This document shows positions 50,301-61,176 of a DNA stretch of 64,000 nt, piece after piece. The notes below the pieces were generated by a model. That model searched no databases and was not told the DNA's origin. It saw only the letters and a list, made by a program, of their open reading frames with translations. The stretch spans positions 38,287-102,286 of the forward strand of contig JADCLI010000018.1 of NCBI GenBank assembly GCA_016803235.1. The letters run 5' to 3'. Position 1 is the stretch's first letter; each line of letters begins with the position of its first letter. The DNA is from Pimelobacter simplex. Its GTDB lineage: Bacteria; Actinomycetota; Actinomycetes; Propionibacteriales; Nocardioidaceae. Position numbers and translations under genes: made by a program.

Positions 50301-53300
50301 TCACAGCGACGGATCGGTCCACGCCAGCTGGACGACCTCGGCCCCACGGTCGCGGGTGAGCATCCGGCCGCGCCCCGGCTGGGCCGGGCCCGGCCGGAGG
50401 TTGCCGATGAGCGCACCCTCGTCGCGGCTTCCGGCCAGCAGGATGCCGGGCATCGCGAGGTCGCGCATGGACTGGATGACCGGTTCGTAGAGCGCCCGCG
50501 ACGCACCGCCCGAACGACGGGCGACCGCGATGTGCAGGCCGACGTCGCGGGCCTGGGCCATCAACGGCTGCAGCAGCGCCACGGGCGAGCTCTGCTGGGT
50601 GGCGACGAGGTCGTAGTCGTCGACCACGACGAACACCTCGGCACCGCTCCACCAGGACCGGTTGCGCAGCTGCTCGGGCGTCACGTCCGGTCCAGGGATC
50701 CGGTTCTGCAGGTAGGTCGCCAGGTCGTTGATCGCCGGCTGCGCCTGGGTCGCGGACGTGAGGTAGTTGAGCAGGTACTCCTCGGGCACCTCGCCCAGCA
50801 GCGAGCGCCGGTAGTCGACGAGGAGGATCTGGGCCTCGGCCGGGGTCCGGGTGCGCATGATCTCCTGGCAGTAGGTGCGCAGCAGGTTGGTCTTGCCGGA
50901 CTTGCCGTCACCGAAGAGCAGCAGGTGCGGCTCGGTGTCGACGTCGAGCGGGACCGGCGCCAGCTCCTTCTCGTTGATGGCGAGCAGCAGCTGCCGCTGC
51001 GGCGGGGTGCCGGCCTGGGCTCGGACCTCGTCGAGCGTGATCCGGTCGGGCAGCAGCCGCAGCTTGGGTCCCGCGGGCCCGCGCCAGGCGCTCGCGACCG
51101 CGTGGATCATCGCGTCGACGCCGTCGCCGAGCGTCTCGGTCGCGTCGTCGCCGTCGATGCGGGGGAGCGCTCCCAGGAAGTGCAGCTTGCCCGGCACCAG
51201 GCCGCGGCCCGGCCGGTTGCCCGGCACCAGGGCGGCGACCTTGCGGTCGATCTCGGAGTCGATCGGGTCACCGAGGCGCAGCTCGAGCCGGGTGCCGACG
51301 AGGTCGCGCATCGCGGCGCGGAAGTCGGGCCAGCGGGTCGCGCCGGTGACGATGTGGAGGCCGAAGGTGAGGCCGCGCCCGGCGAGCTGCTGGATCTCCA
51401 GCTCGAGGTCGTCGAAGTCCGAGCGCAGCGTGCCCCAGCCGTCGATGACGAGGAAGACATCGCCGTACCCGTCGTCGGCTCGGCCCTGGGCACGCCGGCT
51501 GCGGTAGGTCTCGATCGAGTCGATGCCCTGGCTGCGGAAGTAGCGCTCGCGGCGGTCGACGATGCCCTTGACCTCGGCGACGATGCGACGCACCACCTCA
51601 GGCTCGGAGCGGGTGCCGACACCGGACACGTGCGGCAGCGCGGTCATCGGCGCGAAGGTGCCGCCGCCGAAGTCGAGCACGTAGAACTGCGTCTCCAGCG
51701 GCGTCGTGGTGAGCGACAGGCTGGTCACGATCGTGCGCAGCACCGTGCTCTTGCCGCTGCGCGGGCCGCCGACGACGGCGACGTGGCCCGCGGCACCACT
51801 GAGGCTGATCGTCAGCGTGTCGCGGCGCTGCTCGCGCGGGCGGTCGACCGTGCCGAGCGGGATGGTCAGGTTGCCGACGCCGCGCCACTGCATCGACACC
51901 AGCCCGAGCTCGGGGTGCGGCGCGAGGTCGGGCATCAGCCGGTCGAGCGTGTCGGGCCGGTCCAGCGGCGGCAGCCACACCTGGTGGGCCGCCGGGCCGC
52001 GCCCGTCCATCCGGGCGACCGCGACGTCGAGCAGTGACGCACTGCCCTCGGGCACGACGACCGGTGCGTCGGTCTCCTCGCGCTCGGGCTCGTCGAAGGT
52101 CTGCACCTCCGAGATCGTGAACGGCAGGATGCCGCGGACCTTGCCGCCGCTGTCGCGCACGACTCGCCGCCGGCCGGTCTCCGGCGGCCCCGAGACGTAG
52201 GCGGCCTTGAACCGGGTCATCGTGGTCGGGTCGGGCTTGAGGTAGCCGAGGCCGGGCACGGCGGGCAGCTCGTAGGCGTCCGGCACGCCGAGCACCGCGC
52301 GCGACTCCTGGGCGCTGAACGTGCGCAGGCCGATCCGGTACGACAGGTGCGACTCGAGACCGCGCAGCCGGCCCTCCTCCAGGCGCTGCGAGGCGAGCAG
52401 CAGGTGGAGGCCGAGCGAGCGGCCGAGCCGGCCGATCGCGACGAAGAGGTCGATGAACTCCGGCTTGGCCGACAGCATCTCCGAGAACTCGTCGACGACG
52501 AGGAACAGCGACGGCAGCGGGGCGAGGTGCGCGGTGGCCGGATCGCCCGACGTACGGGCCTTCTCGTAGTCGCGGATGGACGCGAAGTTGCCGGCCTCGC
52601 GGAGCAGCTCCTGGCGGCGCACCATCTCTCCGGACAGGGCGTCCTGCATGCGGTCGACGAGGGTCAGCTCCTGGGCGAGGTTGGTGATGACCGCCGAGAC
52701 GTGGGGCATCTCGGCCATGCCGGCGAAGGTCGCGCCACCCTTGAAGTCGACGAGCACCATGTTGAGCTGCTCGGGCGAGTGGGTCATCGCCAGGCCGAGG
52801 ACCAGGGTGCGCAGGAACTCCGACTTGCCGGACCCGGTGGCCCCGATGACCAGGCCGTGCGGGCCCATGCCCTGCTGGGCGGACTCCTTGATGTCGAGGT
52901 GGACCGGTCCGGCGCCGTCACCGACGCCGATCGGGACCCGCAGCCGGTCGCGGGCCGGACGCGGCCGCCAGGCCGTGCCGGGGTCGAAGCGGTGGACGTC
53001 GCCCAGGCCGAGCAGGTCCATGAAGTCGGTCGGCGCCGCGAGGTCGGTCGCCTCCTCGCCGACGGCGGCGCCGGCGCTCGGGGTGAACAGCGGCGTCAGG
53101 CGCCGGGCGAGCGCCTCCGCGGTGGCCGCGCCGCACTGGTCGCCCTTCGCGCGCACCGGCTCGGTGCGCAGGCGTACGGCGACGATCGGCACCGCGTCCG
53201 GCGTCGACCCGGCCGCGCCCGCCCCGGCGTGCGGCTCGATCTCGAGGCGCAGCGCCGTCGGGCTGTCGAGCTCGCCCCAGCGGGCGGGCAGGTCGATCAC

Positions 53301-54458
53301 CGTCACCCCGTGCAGGCCGTCGGACGGGACCAGGTGGTTGCCGGGTGGCAGCTCGGCGCCGTCGGTGACCAGGATGATGTGGGGGATCGCCGGCCGCTCG
53401 TCGGCACCGAAGCGCGGGCGCTCGGTCAGGTCGGGCGGCAGCATCGTGGCCAGGTCGCTCAGCGACGTCGTGACCATCCGGGCCGGGCCGACCGCGTCGT
53501 TCTGGTGCTGGCTGTGGGCGTGCGGCAGCCACTTCACCCAGTCCCAATGGGCCAGGGTCGCCTCGGTGGCGAGCACCGCCACCTGGAGGTTCTCGGGCGA
53601 CTGGAAGGCGGCGGAGGAGCAGAGCAGCGCCCGGGCCAAGGCGCGAGCCTCCTCCTCGTCGCCGCAGACCTCGATCCGGTCGAAGGCCCGCAGGTCGATC
53701 GACGCGGGCAGGTCGGGCTGCAGCCGGTGGACCACGAGCAGGCGGTGCAGCGCGGACGCCGAGGCGGGGTCGACCTCGTCGATCGGCGCCGCCTCCGGCG
53801 GAAGGAGCTCGAGGGCGAGCGGCTGCGCGCACACGCCGTACCGGACCTGGAGGAAGGCGGGGTCGGCCGACGACCGTTCCCACACGCGGGTCCGGTCCTC
53901 GGCCAGCGACGGCAGGGCGGTCGGCGTGGGGTGCAGCCAGGTCAGGGCCCGGCGCTGCTGGTCGGCGGCGTCGCGCGCGACCTTGCGGACGGTGGCGAGG
54001 TAGCGCAGGTACTCCGTGCGGGAGCCGGTCACCTGCTGCTGACGCTGCTTCCGCTGCCGGTCGATCTGGACGATGATGAAGCCGAGGGTGGCGAAGAGGA
54101 ACATGCCGGCCGCGATGAACCGCAGCGAGGAGTTGCCGCTCGAGCCACCGAGGCCCGCGACGAGGACGATCGAGCCGAGGCTGCCGAGCATCGGGATGGC
54201 GTTCATGGCCACGCCCGCGGCACCCTCGCTGGGCTGGAGCTGGGGCGGCGGCTGGAGCTGCAGCTGACCACCCGGCAGCTCGGGCCGCTCACCGCGGCTG
54301 CCGCGCTGGGTCAGGCTGCCAGGTGCGGCGGCGGGTGCGGCGGCGGGTGCGGCGATGCGTCGGCCCGGAGGGCCACCGGGGCCGCCGGGGTGCCCGGGAA
54401 CCGGACCACCGGCACGGTGCGTGCCCGGTCCGCTGCCTGGAGTGATGCCCACCGTCAC
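50301..54458 (-). CDS. eccC: Type VII secretion ATPase EccC (fused EccCa-EccCb)
   Basis: FtsK/SpoIIIE-type motor of 1385 residues that recognises WXG100 substrates and drives ESX export. Two membrane helices lie at about residues 90-135 (MLGSLGSIVLVAGLGG, LRFIAAGMFLFATLGFIIV). Three ATPase domains follow: Walker A GATGSGKSEF (about 538, Walker B LFLVVDEFSE), GGPRSGKSTV (about 895, Walker B LVIDGWG) and GDGKSGKTN (about 1180, Walker B VVVDDYD). Only the first has the canonical Asp-Glu, as in other EccC proteins. The N-terminal 75 residues are Pro/Gly/Ala-rich. The start is GTG at 54458, divergent from the rest of the locus. Confidence 0.93.
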   Translation of the reverse strand: MTVGITPGSGPGTHRAGGPVPGHPGGPGGPPGRRIAAPAAAPAAAPGSLTQRGSRGERPELPGGQLQLQPPPQLQPSEGAAGVAMNAIPMLGSLGSIVLVAGLGGSSGNSSLRFIAAGMFLFATLGFIIVQIDRQRKQRQQQVTGSRTEYLRYLATVRKVARDAADQQRRALTWLHPTPTALPSLAEDRTRVWERSSADPAFLQVRYGVCAQPLALELLPPEAAPIDEVDPASASALHRLLVVHRLQPDLPASIDLRAFDRIEVCGDEEEARALARALLCSSAAFQSPENLQVAVLATEATLAHWDWVKWLPHAHSQHQNDAVGPARMVTTSLSDLATMLPPDLTERPRFGADERPAIPHIILVTDGAELPPGNHLVPSDGLHGVTVIDLPARWGELDSPTALRLEIEPHAGAGAAGSTPDAVPIVAVRLRTEPVRAKGDQCGAATAEALARRLTPLFTPSAGAAVGEEATDLAAPTDFMDLLGLGDVHRFDPGTAWRPRPARDRLRVPIGVGDGAGPVHLDIKESAQQGMGPHGLVIGATGSGKSEFLRTLVLGLAMTHSPEQLNMVLVDFKGGATFAGMAEMPHVSAVITNLAQELTLVDRMQDALSGEMVRRQELLREAGNFASIRDYEKARTSGDPATAHLAPLPSLFLVVDEFSEMLSAKPEFIDLFVAIGRLGRSLGLHLLLASQRLEEGRLRGLESHLSYRIGLRTFSAQESRAVLGVPDAYELPAVPGLGYLKPDPTTMTRFKAAYVSGPPETGRRRVVRDSGGKVRGILPFTISEVQTFDEPEREETDAPVVVPEGSASLLDVAVARMDGRGPAAHQVWLPPLDRPDTLDRLMPDLAPHPELGLVSMQWRGVGNLTIPLGTVDRPREQRRDTLTISLSGAAGHVAVVGGPRSGKSTVLRTIVTSLSLTTTPLETQFYVLDFGGGTFAPMTALPHVSGVGTRSEPEVVRRIVAEVKGIVDRRERYFRSQGIDSIETYRSRRAQGRADDGYGDVFLVIDGWGTLRSDFDDLELEIQQLAGRGLTFGLHIVTGATRWPDFRAAMRDLVGTRLELRLGDPIDSEIDRKVAALVPGNRPGRGLVPGKLHFLGALPRIDGDDATETLGDGVDAMIHAVASAWRGPAGPKLRLLPDRITLDEVRAQAGTPPQRQLLLAINEKELAPVPLDVDTEPHLLLFGDGKSGKTNLLRTYCQEIMRTRTPAEAQILLVDYRRSLLGEVPEEYLLNYLTSATQAQPAINDLATYLQNRIPGPDVTPEQLRNRSWWSGAEVFVVVDDYDLVATQQSSPVALLQPLMAQARDVGLHIAVARRSGGASRALYEPVIQSMRDLAMPGILLAGSRDEGALIGNLRPGPAQPGRGRMLTRDRGAEVVQLAWTDPSL

Positions 54459-54627: not shown

Positions 54628-56025
54628 GTGAACGGGACGTCCCGCACCCCGGCTCCGGGGACGGTCACCGCGGTGACGGTGCACGGTCCTCGCGGCGTGC
54701 TCGACCTGACGGTGCCCGTCGACGCCACGCTCGAGGACGTGTCGCGCACCTACTCCGCCGAGGCCGGCCTGCCCGTCGTGCTGCCGCTCGTCAGCCGCTC
54801 CGGTGAGCCGCTCCAGCTGGCTGCCGTCGTCGGCGACGTCGGCCTGGTGGCGGGCTCGGTCGTCGTCGCCGTCGACCCGTCGTCCCGGCCGGCGCCGCCG
54901 CGCAGCCGGTTCCGCTCCGGGGACGGCGGCGAGTCCGCCCTCGTCGCGGGCCCGGCCTCGGCCGCCTGGTTCGCGCTCGCCGTGGGCTTCGCCGCGGTCG
55001 CGGCGTGGTGTGCGTCCCGGCTGCCCTCGGATGAGCGCTGGCCGGTCGTCGCGGTGCTGTTCGCCGCGGCCCTCGTCGGCTGCCTGCCGATCGGGGTGCT
55101 GCGCGTCCAGCGGGTGCTGGCCGCGCCGGCCTTCGCCGCGGCTGCGGGCTTCGCGCTGGTCTGGGACCCGGTGCCCGAGCGACTGCCCACCGTCTGCGGC
55201 GTCGCCGCCCTCTGCGCCGCGGTGACGGCCGGGACCGGCCGGGCGCTGGCCGATCCCGACAGCGCCGCCGCCGACGGGCTGCGGGTCTGGGTCGCCGTCG
55301 GTGCCGGCTGGTTCGCCGTCGCCGGCCTCGGCGTCCTCACCGGAGTGGCCCCCCAGGTCGTGTGGGCCGTGCTCTTCCTCCTGGCCGTGCTGGCGGCGCG
55401 CTTCGTCCCCGAGATGGTGGTCGACGTCCCGGACCAGTACCTCCTCGACCTCGAACGGCTCGCCGTCACCGCGTGGTCGGCCCGCGAACGGCCGACCGGC
55501 CGGCGTGGCCGGATCGTCGTGCCCGAGCAGGCCGTGCGTGTCGTCGCCGACCGCGGCGCGCGGGCGGTCACGGCCGCCGCCACCGCCGTCCTGGTGGTCG
55601 TGGTCGTCTCGACCCCCCTGCTCCTGGCCAGCGCCGACCTGCCCCTGGACCGTACCGGCGCGCAGTGCCTGGTGGGCTTCGGCGGCGCCGCCCTGCTCCT
55701 CGCGGCCCGCAGCTACCGCCACGTGGCTGCCTGTCGCCTGCTGCGCCTGGCCGGCGTGATCGCCCTGGCCGTGCTCGCCGCCGTCCTCCTCGGGCTGGCG
55801 CCCGGTGGCCGCGACGCGGTCGCCGCACCCGCCGCGGTGGCTGCGGTCGCGGTGGCGATCGCCGGCGTCCTCGTGCTGGCCGCCGTGTACGTCGGCCGCG
55901 GCTGGCGCTCGGCGTGGTGGTCGCGCCGGGCCGAGATCGCCGAGGCGATGTGCGGCGCGTTCGCGGTCGGCTCGCTGGTCGTCGCCGTCGGCTTCTTCCG
56001 CCATCTGTGGGAAGTCACGGGTTGA
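54628..56025 (+). CDS. eccD: EccD-like type VII secretion membrane protein 1
   Basis: Protein of 465 residues. The N-terminal ubiquitin-like (YukD) domain is at about residues 1-90 (VTAVTVHGPRGVLDLTVPVDATLEDVSR). About 10-11 hydrophobic helices follow, with a cytoplasmic loop (YLLDLERLAVTAWSARERPTGRRGR). This is the EccD plan, the channel-forming component of ESX. The start is GTG at 54628 with GGGAGG upstream. A second EccD-like gene follows the WXG100 pair, so the locus has two. Confidence 0.82.
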   Translation: MNGTSRTPAPGTVTAVTVHGPRGVLDLTVPVDATLEDVSRTYSAEAGLPVVLPLVSRSGEPLQLAAVVGDVGLVAGSVVVAVDPSSRPAPPRSRFRSGDGGESALVAGPASAAWFALAVGFAAVAAWCASRLPSDERWPVVAVLFAAALVGCLPIGVLRVQRVLAAPAFAAAAGFALVWDPVPERLPTVCGVAALCAAVTAGTGRALADPDSAAADGLRVWVAVGAGWFAVAGLGVLTGVAPQVVWAVLFLLAVLAARFVPEMVVDVPDQYLLDLERLAVTAWSARERPTGRRGRIVVPEQAVRVVADRGARAVTAAATAVLVVVVVSTPLLLASADLPLDRTGAQCLVGFGGAALLLAARSYRHVAACRLLRLAGVIALAVLAAVLLGLAPGGRDAVAAPAAVAAVAVAIAGVLVLAAVYVGRGWRSAWWSRRAEIAEAMCGAFAVGSLVVAVGFFRHLWEVTG

Positions 56026-56158: not shown

Positions 56159-56482
56159 ATGGCAGGCACTGAGTTCGGACACGGAGAAGGCGCTCTCAAG
56201 GCGGTCGCCGACCTCGTGGCCACCACCAAGCAGGACCTCGCGAAGATGTCGGGCAAGATGGCCGACCAGCTCGAGGACATGAACCGCGCGTGGGTCGGTG
56301 GCGGTGGTCTCGCCTTCGCGAACGTCAAGCAGGCGTGGATCGAGAAGCACCAGGTCGTCACGGCCGCGCTCGACCAGTTCGAGTCCTCGCTCATCGAGAC
56401 CGAGAAGGACAACGTCGGCACCGACGACTCGGCGAGCACCAACCTCGCCGGCTTCCTCAACAAGCTCGACGCCCAGTCCTGA
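56159..56482 (+). CDS. WXG100 family protein 1 (ESX substrate)
   Basis: Protein of 107 residues, helix-turn-helix hairpin type, with WVG in NRAWVGGGGLAFANV at about residues 43-57. It is probably one half of an EsxA/EsxB-like heterodimer exported by this ESX. Ribosome binding site GGAGC precedes ATG 56159. A C-terminal YxxxD/E signal is not obvious; the tail reads NLAGFLNKLDAQS. Confidence 0.85.
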   Translation: MAGTEFGHGEGALKAVADLVATTKQDLAKMSGKMADQLEDMNRAWVGGGGLAFANVKQAWIEKHQVVTAALDQFESSLIETEKDNVGTDDSASTNLAGFLNKLDAQS

Positions 56483-56516
56483 CCACCCCACACCCACGAC
56501 TTTCCAGGAGACAACC

Positions 56517-56840
56517 ATGACCGGACCTGACTTCGGCGCCCTCGACGGGCTGCGCGTCAACCACGGCAAGCTCGACGAGGCGGCCGCGGCGATGTACCAG
56601 ACCGCCGTCGACATGAACGCCCGTCTCGACCAGCTCGAGCACGACGCCCGCAAGTACATCCTGACCTGGTCGGAGACCAGCTCCCAGCGTCAGTCCTGGG
56701 ACCAGGCCAAGCAGGCCTGGGACTGGGCGATGAAGGAGCTGCTCGACCTGCTCGACGGCGTCTCGAAGACGACCTACCAGTCGAACGCCGACTACATCCA
56801 GGCCGACAAGCGCGGCGCCGGCCGGTTCGGGCCTCGCTGA
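56517..56840 (+). CDS. WXG100 family protein 2 (ESX substrate)
   Basis: Protein of 107 residues with the same helical length. The turn reads LTWSETSSQRQSW (W-S-E instead of W-x-G). The C-terminus has YQSNADYIQADKRG, containing YIQAD, a match to the YxxxD/E export signal recognised by EccC. AGGAG precedes the ATG. It lies 34 bp after WXG100 protein 1; the pair likely forms a heterodimer with this one carrying the signal. Confidence 0.85.
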   Translation: MTGPDFGALDGLRVNHGKLDEAAAAMYQTAVDMNARLDQLEHDARKYILTWSETSSQRQSWDQAKQAWDWAMKELLDLLDGVSKTTYQSNADYIQADKRGAGRFGPR

Positions 56841-56896: not shown

Positions 56897-56957
56897 GTTG
56901 CTGTCTCCAGCGGAGGGGCTTCTAGGATCGAGCCTCAGTCTCGGGAAGGGTGAGCAG

Positions 56958-58340
56958 ATGACACAGGCGCCGCGCACGAGCGCAGCGGTCGCGTCCGGAC
57001 TGGTCCGGGTGACCGTCACGTCCGGGACCCGGCGGGTCGACCTGGTGCTCCCCGGAGCGGTCCCCGTGGCCGAGCTGCTGCCCGAGCTGGCCCGCAGCGT
57101 CGGGCTCCTCGACCCGGCCACCGTCCACGGCGGCTACCGGGTCGGCACCTCCGAGGGCCGCCGGCTCGCGCTCGACACCGGCCTGACCCTGCAGGGCATC
57201 GAGGACGGCGGCCTGCTCACCGTGACCGCCGGGATCGACGACCCGGCGCCGCGGGTCTACGACGACGTGGTCGAGGCGATGACCGACGTGGTCGAGCACG
57301 ACCTCGAGCCCTGGCACCCGGCCGCCGGGCGGCGCACGGCGCTCGTCGCGGCCGGCCTCTTCCTCGTCCTCGGCGCCGGTGCGCTGCTGGTGCAGCGCGG
57401 CTCCGACATCGCCGCCGCCGCGACGGCGCTGGTCGCGGCGGCGCTCTGCGCCGGCGCGATCGTGCTGTCGCGGGCGCAGGGCGAGCACGAGGCCGGGGTC
57501 GGCGTGGCCTGGCTGGGAGCCGGGTACGCCGCCGTCGCGGGCGTCATGCTCGTGCCCGACGGCGAGGTGTGGTTCGCCGATCCGCTCGCCGCGGCCGGTG
57601 CCGGTGCGCTGCTCGCCGGGGTGGTGTGCCTGATCGGCCTGGGCCAGGGACGGACCCTCGCCTTCCCGCCGCTGGTCGTCGGCGCGCTGGCGGTCGGCGT
57701 CGGCATCTACGTCCGCTCCACGCCCGACGGCTTCGCTCCCGCCCCGCTGCTCACGACGGTGCTGGCGTTCGTCGTCCTGGCCGGCAGCGTGTTCCCGTGG
57801 CTGGCGCTCGGCGCGACCACCACCCGGGTCGACCAGCTCTACTCGCCCGCCGACATCACGGCAGACCCCGACGACATCGAGCGCGACCGGGTCGCCGCCG
57901 ACGCCCGGGTCGCCCACGAGATCCTGCTCGCGATCAGCGGCACCGTCGGCCTGCTCCTCGTGCTGGTCGCGCCGCTGGCCGTCAGCCTCGGCGTCACCGG
58001 CACCCTGCTGGCGGTCGACGCGTGCCTGATCGTGGTGCTGCGCACCCGTCAGTACCGCACCGGCAGCGAGGTGCTGCTCGGCCTCGGCTCCGGTGTCGCC
58101 GGGATCGCTGCGACCGCGGTCGCCGTGCTCGCCCTCCACGCCGACTGGCGCCCGACCCTGGCCGTCGTCCTGGCCGTCGTCGGCGCGGTGCTCCTCGTCG
58201 CCACCCTGAGCCCGGCCGCCCCCTCGGTGCGCCGCGGTCGGCTCGGCGACGTGCTCGAGTCCGTCGCGCTGCTGACCCTGCTCCCGCTCCTCGTCGTCGC
58301 GACCGGTCTCTTCGACCAGGTCCGCGACTGGATCGGCTGA
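56958..58340 (+). CDS. eccD: EccD-like type VII secretion membrane protein 2
   Basis: Protein of 460 residues. The N-terminal ubiquitin-like domain spans about residues 1-95 (SGLVRVTVTSGTRRVDLVLPGAVPVAELLPEL). About 11 helices follow, with the EccD cytoplasmic loop (YSPADITADPDDIERDRVAADARVAHEILLAI). ATG at 56958 follows a GGGAAGGG sequence. Its length and plan equal EccD-like 1. ESX membrane complexes contain two EccD copies per protomer, so the two genes may form a heterodimer. Confidence 0.85.
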   Translation: MTQAPRTSAAVASGLVRVTVTSGTRRVDLVLPGAVPVAELLPELARSVGLLDPATVHGGYRVGTSEGRRLALDTGLTLQGIEDGGLLTVTAGIDDPAPRVYDDVVEAMTDVVEHDLEPWHPAAGRRTALVAAGLFLVLGAGALLVQRGSDIAAAATALVAAALCAGAIVLSRAQGEHEAGVGVAWLGAGYAAVAGVMLVPDGEVWFADPLAAAGAGALLAGVVCLIGLGQGRTLAFPPLVVGALAVGVGIYVRSTPDGFAPAPLLTTVLAFVVLAGSVFPWLALGATTTRVDQLYSPADITADPDDIERDRVAADARVAHEILLAISGTVGLLLVLVAPLAVSLGVTGTLLAVDACLIVVLRTRQYRTGSEVLLGLGSGVAGIAATAVAVLALHADWRPTLAVVLAVVGAVLLVATLSPAAPSVRRGRLGDVLESVALLTLLPLLVVATGLFDQVRDWIG

Positions 58341-58350
58341 GTGACCGTCG

Positions 58351-59757
58351 ATGGCCACCAAGAAGGACCTCGTCGAGGCCTACTCGTTCAGCCGCCGTCG
58401 CCTGGTCACGGCCTTCGTGTCGGGCGCACCCGGGGGCCGTGAGGTCGAGCCCGCCCGCCCCGGCCGGATGATCGTCGGCGGCATCGCGCTCGCCGTCCTG
58501 CTCATCGCCGGCGCGGCGATCGCCGGTGCGCTGTCCGACCGGGCCGAGGTCGACTGGAAGGAGCCCGGCCTGGTCGCCGACGACCGCGGCGCGCTCTACG
58601 TGATCCTCGACGAGGACGCGGTGCCCGGGCAGCCCCGCGTGCGACCGGTCATCAACGTCACCTCCGCCCAGCTGATCCTCGGCGCGGACGTCGAGGCGCG
58701 CAAGGTGCCGGACGAGGAGATCGCCGGGGTCCGCAAGGGGCAGTCGATCGGCATCCTCGACGCCCCGGCCACCGTCCCCGGCGTCGGCCAGCTCGTCGAG
58801 TCGGGCTGGACCTCGTGCACCGGCGCCGGGCTCGGGATGCAGACCTCGGTCGCCGAGCGCCCTGCGGTCACCCGGGTGCCGACCGAGGGCTTCGTGGTGA
58901 AGTCCGACGCCGACGGCAAGTCCTACCTCATCGCGGAGGCGGAGGTGCCGGGCCTGCCCCGTCGCGCGTACCGCTACCAGATCCCCGCGGACAACGACCC
59001 GCTCTACATCGAGCTCGGGATCTCGCCGAACGACGAGATCACGGTCCCCGACGCCTGGCTCGAGCTGTTCCCCCCGGGGGCCCCGCTCGACGTCGACGGC
59101 CTCGGCATCGAGGGCGGTGGGCAGCCGATCACGCCGCCGGGCTACGGTTCCGCGCGCGTTGGGGACTGGGTGGTGACGTCGGACAAGACCTACGCCGTGA
59201 CCCCCAAGGGCTTCCTCGAGCTGTCCCCGTTCGCCGCCGCGGTGCTGCGCAACACGTCGTTCGGCAAGCAGAAGCCGACCGAGATCGCCTACGTGCCCGG
59301 TGCTCCGTTCAACGTGGCCCCACCGGCCGAGGACGCCCGTCAGCTCTGGCCCGAGCAGGTGCTCGACGGGTCGCTCGACTCCACCGACCAGGCCTGTGCC
59401 CAGCTCGTCACCGCGAAGGGCGAGCCGCCGGCCGCCCTCCTGGCGACCGCCCCGCAGGGCGACGCCAGCGCCGAGGGCGTGTCCGCCGGCGACCGCGAGG
59501 TCACGGTCGCGTCCGGCCGCGGCGCCGTGGTGCGCTCCGCGGACTGGATCACCAGCGACGGCGGCACCAGCCACCTCATCGACGACCGTGGCTACAGCTA
59601 CCAGGTCGCCAGCGCCTTCGACCTCGAGCAGCTGGGCTACGCGAAGGTCCCCCTCGTCGTGATCCCCGACGTGTGGAACAAGCTGTTCGAGATCGGCCCC
59701 GAGCTCTCCCAGGACGCCGCGCTGTGCCCGCCGTCCAAGGACCGGTCGTGCGGCTAG
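58351..59757 (+). CDS. eccB: Type VII secretion protein EccB
   Basis: EccB of 468 residues. A short cytoplasmic N-terminus begins MATKKDLVEAYSFSRRRLVTA, the family start. One membrane helix lies at about residues 42-62 (VGGIALAVLLIAGAAIAGAL). A large extracytoplasmic domain follows with the Cys pair (SCTGAG, DQACAQLV) and the C-terminal CPPSKDRSCG. It is part of the ESX core complex with EccC and EccD. It lies 10 bp after eccD-like 2 and overlaps the mycosin gene by 10 bp. Confidence 0.93.
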   Translation: MATKKDLVEAYSFSRRRLVTAFVSGAPGGREVEPARPGRMIVGGIALAVLLIAGAAIAGALSDRAEVDWKEPGLVADDRGALYVILDEDAVPGQPRVRPVINVTSAQLILGADVEARKVPDEEIAGVRKGQSIGILDAPATVPGVGQLVESGWTSCTGAGLGMQTSVAERPAVTRVPTEGFVVKSDADGKSYLIAEAEVPGLPRRAYRYQIPADNDPLYIELGISPNDEITVPDAWLELFPPGAPLDVDGLGIEGGGQPITPPGYGSARVGDWVVTSDKTYAVTPKGFLELSPFAAAVLRNTSFGKQKPTEIAYVPGAPFNVAPPAEDARQLWPEQVLDGSLDSTDQACAQLVTAKGEPPAALLATAPQGDASAEGVSAGDREVTVASGRGAVVRSADWITSDGGTSHLIDDRGYSYQVASAFDLEQLGYAKVPLVVIPDVWNKLFEIGPELSQDAALCPPSKDRSCG

Positions 59758-60992
59758 GACCTGCCCTCGGACGCCCCGCGGCGCGCGGTGCGGCAGCGGC
59801 GCTCGCCGGCACGCTCGCCGGGCTGGCGCTGACGTCCCCTGCCACGGCGGCGACGGCCGCGGCTCCGGTCGGCCCGTCCTGTCTCGAGGTCGACACCTCG
59901 GCCACCGACCAGCTCCAGGTGAAGGGCGACAACACCGCGAACCTCTCCCTCCACGTCGCCGAGGCCCAGGCGCTCGTCGCGAAGGCCGGTCGTCAGCCGG
60001 GCCGGGGCGTGAAGGTCGTGGTCGTCGACAGCGGCACCGGTGCCTTCAGGGGAGCCGGTACGACGGATCTCCCGAGCGGCCACGGTGTCGCGGTGGCGGG
60101 GATCATCGCGGGACCGAACCAGCCGGATCCGGAGATCAGCGTCGGCATCGCACCGTCGGCCGACGTCCTCGACGTCAGGTTCTACGACACTCCCGACGGC
60201 GCGCAGGACGGGGAGAGGGTCCCCACGGCCGCCGAGCTCACCAAGGCGCTCTCCGCGCTCGCCGACCAGCGGGCCGGGGGCACCCTCGGTGGCAGGGTGG
60301 TCGTCGTCGTACCCGCACAGGTGCCGCACTCCCCCCAGCTCGAGGCCCAGGTGGACCGGCTGGTCGGCTCCGGCGTCCTGCTCGTCGCCGCGTCGGGCGA
60401 CCGCCCGGGCAGCGACGGCGCCTTCCCCGACGGCTACGACGGCGAGCCCAGGAAGGGCGAGGACGTCGCCGACCTGGTCTGGCCGGCCGCGCACCCGGGC
60501 GTCGTCGCCGTCGGGGTGTCGACCCCCGGCAGCGCCGGCACGGTGCTGCGCAGCTCCGCCATCGACCTCGCCGCGCCGGGCGCCGACGCCGTGTCGCGCG
60601 GCCGCAACGGCGGCTGGTGCGTGGTCGCCCCGGCGTCGACGGCCTGGGCCGCCGCCCAGGTGGCCGGCGTCGCCGCCCTGGTCTGGACCATGCACCCCGA
60701 CGAGGACGCCGCCCGGCTGCGGACCCGGCTCGAGCAGACCGCCAGCGGCAACGGCGGACCGTCGAGCCCGATCACCGGGTACGGCGTGGTCCAGCCGGTC
60801 GAGGCGATCCAGCGCGACGTCGCCGAGATGGGGGCCGAGCGCAAGCAGAAGGTCGAGCCTGCCCGCCCTCCGCGCGCCGAGGCCGACGTCCTGGCCGGCG
60901 CCCGCCAGGACGCCGTGTGGTGGGGGCTGGGCGGCGGAGCGGCGCTCGTCGTCCTCCTCCTGCTGCGGCCCCTCCTGTCCCGGCGCCGCTGA
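59748..60992 (+). CDS. mycP: Mycosin (MycP-like S8 protein) with substituted catalytic serine
   Basis: Membrane-anchored subtilase-fold protein of 414 residues, the normal mycosin length and position in ESX loci. A signal peptide spans about residues 1-34 and a C-terminal helix is followed by basic residues (AALVVLLLLRPLLSRRR). Asp (VVVVDSGTG) and His (SGHGVAVAG) of the triad remain. The GTSxAAPxVAG block reads STAWAAAQVAG, giving Ala at the Ser position, and the AAGN oxyanion block reads ASGD. It is probably a structural, non-proteolytic mycosin. The start is GTG at 59748, overlapping eccB. Confidence 0.88.
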   Translation: MRLGPALGRPAARGAAAALAGTLAGLALTSPATAATAAAPVGPSCLEVDTSATDQLQVKGDNTANLSLHVAEAQALVAKAGRQPGRGVKVVVVDSGTGAFRGAGTTDLPSGHGVAVAGIIAGPNQPDPEISVGIAPSADVLDVRFYDTPDGAQDGERVPTAAELTKALSALADQRAGGTLGGRVVVVVPAQVPHSPQLEAQVDRLVGSGVLLVAASGDRPGSDGAFPDGYDGEPRKGEDVADLVWPAAHPGVVAVGVSTPGSAGTVLRSSAIDLAAPGADAVSRGRNGGWCVVAPASTAWAAAQVAGVAALVWTMHPDEDAARLRTRLEQTASGNGGPSSPITGYGVVQPVEAIQRDVAEMGAERKQKVEPARPPRAEADVLAGARQDAVWWGLGGGAALVVLLLLRPLLSRRR

Positions 60993-61024: not shown

Positions 61025-61091
61025 GTGGGCCGCTCGTGCGCGAAATGCCGAACGGCGCCGACCTGGGTCGACGCCGTCCGGTGCTGCTGGC

Positions 61092-61176
61092 GGAGCTGGG
61101 GGGATTCGAACCCCCGAGGGCTGTTAACCCAACCCGCTTTCCAAGCGAGCGCCATAGGCCACTAGGCGACAGCTCC
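61092..61176 (-). tRNA. tRNA-Ser (GGA anticodon)
   Basis: An 85-nt class II tRNA. The acceptor pairs GGAGCTG with CAGCTCC. The anticodon loop TTGGAAA gives GGA. A long variable arm is present, and the T-arm reads GGGGGTTCGAATCCCCC. CCA is not encoded. Confidence 0.96.

Follow-up and report, generated by a model that had tools for sequence, protein, structure and literature searches.

Mycosins pose an unsolved question in the field of type VII secretion, in that they are required though their cutting is dispensable. What becomes of such a protein once it can no longer cut is the question raised by a locus of Pimelobacter simplex (assembly GCA_016803235.1, contig JADCLI010000018.1), studied here in a window of 64,000 nt, by which the whole stretch of DNA analysed is meant. 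The mycosin encoded in this window has lost the catalytic serine. It is probably a pseudoprotease that has been retained for a cap or stabilizing role and whose active site has been filled in; the part is probably a structural cap and no longer a cutter, with the rest of the secretion machine kept. The gene is a full reading frame of 414 residues, and its start lies inside the final 10 bases of the EccB gene. Its features are as follows.

59748..60992, + strand: pseudo-mycosin, with a signal-like N-terminus, a subtilisin-fold domain (about residues 57-356) and a C-terminal membrane helix (383-411)
60027..60029, + strand: Asp94, catalytic Asp position, kept (GAC); Asp in 23/23 of the clade described below
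60081..60083, + strand: His112, catalytic His position, kept (CAC); His in 22/23 of that clade
60312..60314, + strand: Pro189, where the VNxSL motif has its substrate-strand Ser (alignment)
60399..60401, + strand: Asp218 (GAC), where the oxyanion-hole Asn would stand (alignment)
60636..60638, + strand: Ser297, aligned with the Gly of GTS and immediately preceding the central helix (alignment and model)
60642..60644, + strand: Ala299 (GCC), where the catalytic Ser would stand (alignment)

The initial annotation, made from the letters of the window, had proposed that the catalytic Ser and the oxyanion Asn were lost and that the catalytic Asp and His were retained. Both proposals are borne out by the alignments, in which Ala299 and Asp218 stand at the first two positions and Asp94 and His112 at the others; in the known mycosins MycP1 and MycP3 the corresponding residues are GTS and Asn, against STA and Asp in the window protein. 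Ser297 was considered as the true nucleophile, hidden by misalignment, and was rejected because no gap interrupts the alignments along the helix and the model is in accord with them. The ectodomain has a subtilisin fold, as seen in the model and in the match to Pfam Peptidase_S8 (58.8 bits). The score against NCBIfam TIGR03921 (125.3 bits) is far under the equivalog cut-off of 278.75, which is not peculiar to the dead form, since none of 120 Nocardioidaceae genomes passes this cut-off, intact mycosins included. The suggested C-terminal anchor was recovered as a hydrophobic run and as helix 383-411 of the model, the latter at low confidence (block predicted local distance difference test, pLDDT, 46-69). 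The AlphaFold2 prediction for L198, an intact relative, had a mean pLDDT of 62 and was left aside.

In a survey of the genus Nocardioides, the protein was matched in 148 of 196 genomes, the window's own included, and 48 had no match. Loci were taken for 140 of the 147 other matching genomes, the seven lower-scoring matches being left out, so that with the window 141 aligned rows were available: 83 with Asp, His, Asn and Ser all present, 16 with Ser and some other change or gap, and 42 without Ser. Removal of three fragments (L123, L135 and L138) gave 138 usable rows, 41 without Ser (the window among them) and 97 with it. The mycosin of the window falls in a clade of 23 rows with full support in the mycosin tree (Shimodaira-Hasegawa-like approximate likelihood ratio test, SH-aLRT, 100), whose members include Pimelobacter simplex, Nocardioides albidus, N. 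daeguensis, N. carbamazepini and N. caeni. Whether Ala and Asp would be conserved in orthologous loci had been raised as a check. The expectation holds for Asp218, present in 23/23, and for the absence of Ser in 22/23, and fails for Ala299 itself, position 299 being Ala in 10 rows, His in 8, Glu in 2, Asp in 2 and Ser in 1 (L043). Because the Ser loss is common to 22 of the 23 members, a sequencing error or a recent mutation is ruled out. Ser297 is likewise found in 23/23, and in every row of the clade the substrate strand has changed from VNxSL to V[V/L]xP, the window reading VVVVP. Position 189 lies in the strand that lines the substrate in subtilisin. What the alignments show is a protein predicted to be inactive: its nucleophile has been lost, Asp has replaced Asn in the oxyanion hole and the substrate-edge strand has been rewritten. 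The other 19 Ser-less rows have gone further, with His lost in 17 and Asp in nine.

A separate lineage of short mycosins (L164, L166, L169, L172, L173, L175 and L176) keeps Ser and has no oxyanion Asn; L172 also has Arg for His, and the EccB/EccC branch of this seven-mycosin lineage is long too.

Serine loss is not a single case. By parsimony, Ser was gained or lost nine times on the mycosin tree (138 rows, with columns 94, 112, 218 and 299 left out) and nine times on a separate FastTree tree of EccB and EccC (123 rows, 39 of them Ser-less); the latter count permits regains, and we read that tree as seven to ten losses. On its well-supported branches, for instance, dead L060, L059, L065 and L085 stand beside intact L098, L101, L078 and L083, and L075 beside L070. 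An approximately unbiased (AU) test, with eight signature columns left out, rejected a single dead clade (p 1.35e-52) on 43 rows picked after the tree had been seen, 21 drawn from the 41 dead rows and 22 with Ser kept, L043, L081, L092, L096, L100 and L170 being left out. A single origin of all Ser-less mycosins is rejected on these rows, and serine loss is recurrent across the genus as judged from the phylogenies.

Rows from other Nocardioidaceae genera bear on the order of events. Among 29 rows examined, nine were anchored mycosins from such genera, the other 20 being Nocardioides mycosins or other S8 proteins. Ser is kept in all nine, and four (L201, L202, L204 and L212) have Asp for the oxyanion Asn together with Ser and His. 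The change from Asn to Asp alone is therefore compatible with a kept serine. It may come first, before the serine is lost, and Asp218 is judged not to be decisive for inactivity by itself.

The ratio of non-synonymous to synonymous substitution rates (dN/dS) was 0.135, 0.167, 0.160, 0.107, 0.127 and 0.182 in six Ser-less sets, while the three intact sets gave 0.110, 0.120 and 0.163; these are single ratios per set, rough owing to the large distances, and the third Ser-less set contains the first two, of which the first holds L043. Cys45, Cys291 and Trp391 are present in 125 of 125 rows (23 of the clade, 83 intact and 19 other Ser-less), and exceptions to the RP at the anchor occur in intact rows only (R in 82/83, P in 81/83). 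The partner genes have been kept as well. In tblastn searches of Ser-less loci of at least 17 kb, EccB, EccC, EccD and the EccD-like protein were each found in 34/34 and the WXG100 proteins in 33/34 and 34/34, and the corresponding figures for intact loci of at least 17 kb were 67/67 for EccB, EccD and the EccD-like protein, 66/67 for EccC, and 65/67 and 62/67 for the WXG100 proteins. Fold, cysteines, anchor, operon place and partner genes are shown by these comparisons to have been maintained under purifying selection. Clade conservation, complete loci and low dN/dS together support a functional pseudoprotease over decay, as had been surmised at the outset.

The neighbouring genes of the window are given below.

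58351..59757, + strand: EccB (TIGR03919, 166 bits, cut-off 154; PF05108)
56898..58340, + strand: EccD (TIGR03920, 101.8 bits, cut-off 94.95; PF19053, PF08817)
56298..56840, + strand: WXG100-family protein 2, domain in the C-terminal half of the open reading frame (PF06013, 29.2 bits, cut-off 27.3)
56159..56482, + strand: WXG100-family protein 1, with WVG (PF06013, 28.6 bits, cut-off 27.3; TIGR03930, 26.4 bits, under the cut-off of 44.85)
54715..56025, + strand: second EccD-like membrane protein, weak, start uncertain (PF19053, 16.2 bits, E 0.005, under the cut-off of 30)
50301..54458, - strand: EccC ATPase, EccCa and EccCb fused (TIGR03924, 929 bits; TIGR03925, 868 bits)

The mycosin is the last gene of a + strand run of EccD-like, WXG100, WXG100, EccD and EccB genes, with EccC on the opposite strand. 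The description of the locus as otherwise intact stands, EccB, EccC, EccD and WXG100 genes being present beside the mycosin, and so do its two candidate WXG100 substrates, both of which match PF06013 over the cut-off. An ESX-4 gene content is reported to comprise EccB, EccC, EccD, MycP and WXG100 without EccA and often without EccE (PMC11217815; PMC4791881). From the presence of the same five components the window locus appears ESX-4-like. The second WXG100 protein (56298-56840) has WSE in place of WxG at its turn motif, and a tRNA-Ser (gga) lies at 61088-61176 on the minus strand, directly downstream of the mycosin.

A compensating second active mycosin was sought and none was found in the window genome, where the mycosin-profile matches of the other S8 proteins reach no further than position 298 of 353 and a single EccC exceeds the cut-off. 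Among the 22 other clade genomes, a further S8 frame matching the mycosin profile occurs in G081 (2-352), in G148 (2-340, with an internal stop) and less fully in G192 (4-323), and a second, weaker EccC-like gene, under the cut-off, in G139, G123, G195 and G042. In the locus of the Ser-less mycosin of G148 (L057), two frames share the main match to EccC (profile 19-481 and 480-672). One stop sign each is present in the aligned EccC frame of L045, L069, L100, L168 and L169, Ser-less and intact alike.

How the site changed along with the loss of the serine can be followed in the residues that vary with it. Pro189 is found in 34/41 Ser-less rows vs 1/97 Ser-keeping rows (L043), Asp218 in 38/41 vs 6/97 and Ser297 in 39/41 vs 16/97; Fisher values on these 138 rows ignore kinship and were not used as evidence. 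On the EccB and EccC tree, nine independent pairs differing at Ser299 could be drawn on supported branches, and in these Pro189 and Asp218 each accompanied Ser loss in about 5.7 pairs and never the opposite (sign test, median p 0.031, range 0.031-0.0625). In 5.6 pairs His112 was lost along with Ser (median p 0.031). Ser297 was not significant in the same pairs (4.8 for vs 0.4 against, p 0.125), and neither it nor A306 nor the losses of N187, D94 and A297 reached a median p of 0.05. On the mycosin tree only four such pairs could be drawn on well-supported branches, which is not enough for the test.

Mycobacterial work offers a possible mechanism for these patterns. MycP1 of Mycobacterium marinum and Mycobacterium tuberculosis is reported to be needed for ESX-1 with its serine dispensable, protease-dead MycP1 even giving more secretion, and the mycosin to stabilize the ESX complex; MycP5 in M. 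marinum is said to behave similarly without that increase (PMC5156307; PMC5082899). In the ESX-5 structure a MycP5 trimer is described as capping the EccB5 chamber, with active sites facing the lumen (PMC8131196). The window protein, on this model, would only cap and stabilize the EccB/EccC/EccD membrane complex, as the MycP5 trimer does in ESX-5. Ser-less versions would then take on similar repairs, Asp218 and Ser297 beside the start of the central helix and Pro189 in the former substrate strand, and these changes may fill and stabilize a site freed from substrate binding. A cap or structural role alone is what we infer by analogy, the protein being taken as a cap without a cutting site because of its mycosin homology and its place in the operon.

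Several facts weigh against this interpretation. The chief one, which it leaves unexplained, is the retention of Asp94 in 23/23 and of His112 in 22/23 of the clade, which simple relaxation over such divergence does not predict. Within the same clade, L043 (G014, N. carbamazepini) has Ser299 (TCC, with GCC in its sister L041); since it also carries Pro189, Asp218 and Ser297, the best reading is that Ser was regained within an otherwise dead lineage. Pro189 is absent in seven of the 41 Ser-less rows, and the pair test is small, with eight features tried and three at a median p of 0.031, uncorrected. The dN/dS values of 0.167 and 0.182 lie somewhat above those of the two large intact sets (0.110 and 0.120). 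Finally, Nocardioides mycosins, intact or dead, mostly have Arg for the Trp of the 'ALTW' motif of MycP1 and MycP3. That Trp perhaps corresponds to Trp523 of MycP5, which lies at the EccB interface, so the cap geometry of MycP5 may not transfer in detail.

These facts leave some room for other readings. It is rather unlikely that some seven to ten pseudoprotease conversions of the type VII cap in one genus, marked by Pro189, Asp218 and Ser297 without Ser299, produced not just a filled-in site but a remodelled one with a new non-proteolytic function, be it binding, gating or a rearranged chemistry of Asp94, His112 and Ser297.

Gating in particular, in which the dead site would hold a secreted partner or the protein's own N-terminus in the cap lumen and so time secretion, is unlikely. 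The lumen-facing active sites of MycP5 (PMC8131196) and the persistence of Asp94 and His112 in the clade would suit such a checkpoint, as would the altered secretion level reported for protease-dead MycP1 (PMC5156307; PMC5082899). However, the VNxSL strand has been rewritten to V[V/L]xP in all 23 clade rows, and blocking the MycP1 groove is reported to have left secretion unharmed (PMC5082899).

Very unlikely is a relocated chemistry, in which Ser297, Asp94 and His112 with an oxyanion Asp218 would form the active site of an unusual hydrolase. Ser297 is present throughout the clade and in 39/41 rows lacking Ser299, Asp94 and His112 are kept in the clade, and an Asp in the oxyanion place is reported to be used by S53 peptidases (PMC6411800). 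Yet Ser297 occurs with or without a usable triad. Ser-less rows have it almost as often when His112 is lost (16/18) as when it is kept (23/23), which favours a structural part at the start of the helix over a moved nucleophile, and Asp94 is lost in 9/19 of the other Ser-less rows. Moreover, the substrate strand carries Pro189, and in the model Ser297 directly precedes the helix, a place where Ser is common as a helix cap.

That the gene is merely heading for loss, its substitutions meaningless, is extremely improbable: position 299 does drift among Ala, His, Glu and Asp and 48 of the 196 genomes have no match, but the window gene has a full reading frame, dN/dS in the Ser-less sets is 0.107-0.182, EccB, EccC and EccD are complete in 34/34 Ser-less loci, and Asp218, Pro189 and Ser297 extend across the clade, with the same changes in separate lineages.

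A pseudoprotease kept as a cap is thus the preferred reading, and its recurrence may be of use. Repeatedly evolved Ser-less mycosins in complete loci offer ready pairs of soil species, with the site present or absent, in which the cap role can be compared with the cutting role, and the co-varying residues would indicate which requirements of the domain remain without cutting. Among the open-licence papers listed, none reports natural protease-dead mycosins in its title or abstract opening, which does not prove that there is no such report.

Among the closest known systems are the intact Nocardioides mycosins (83 of 141 rows, e.g. N. halotolerans, L107/L198), which share the locus type, Cys45 and Cys291, Trp391 and the RP at the anchor, but keep all four catalytic-site residues, with Ser189 in 76/83 and Ala297 in 70/83. 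Others are CspC and CspA of Clostridioides difficile, subtilisin-like proteins reported as pseudoproteases with a non-proteolytic job. These act in spore germination, are encoded in an unrelated operon and are not known to belong to a secretion complex. MycP1, MycP3 and MycP5 of the mycobacterial ESX-1, ESX-3 and ESX-5 systems resemble the window protein in their homologous subtilisin domain, ESX locus and membrane anchor, and a proteolysis-independent role has been reported for MycP1 and MycP5. The difference lies in the site itself, where MycP1 and MycP3 retain GTS and Asn and the window protein has STA and Asp, with VVVVP for the VNxSL strand.
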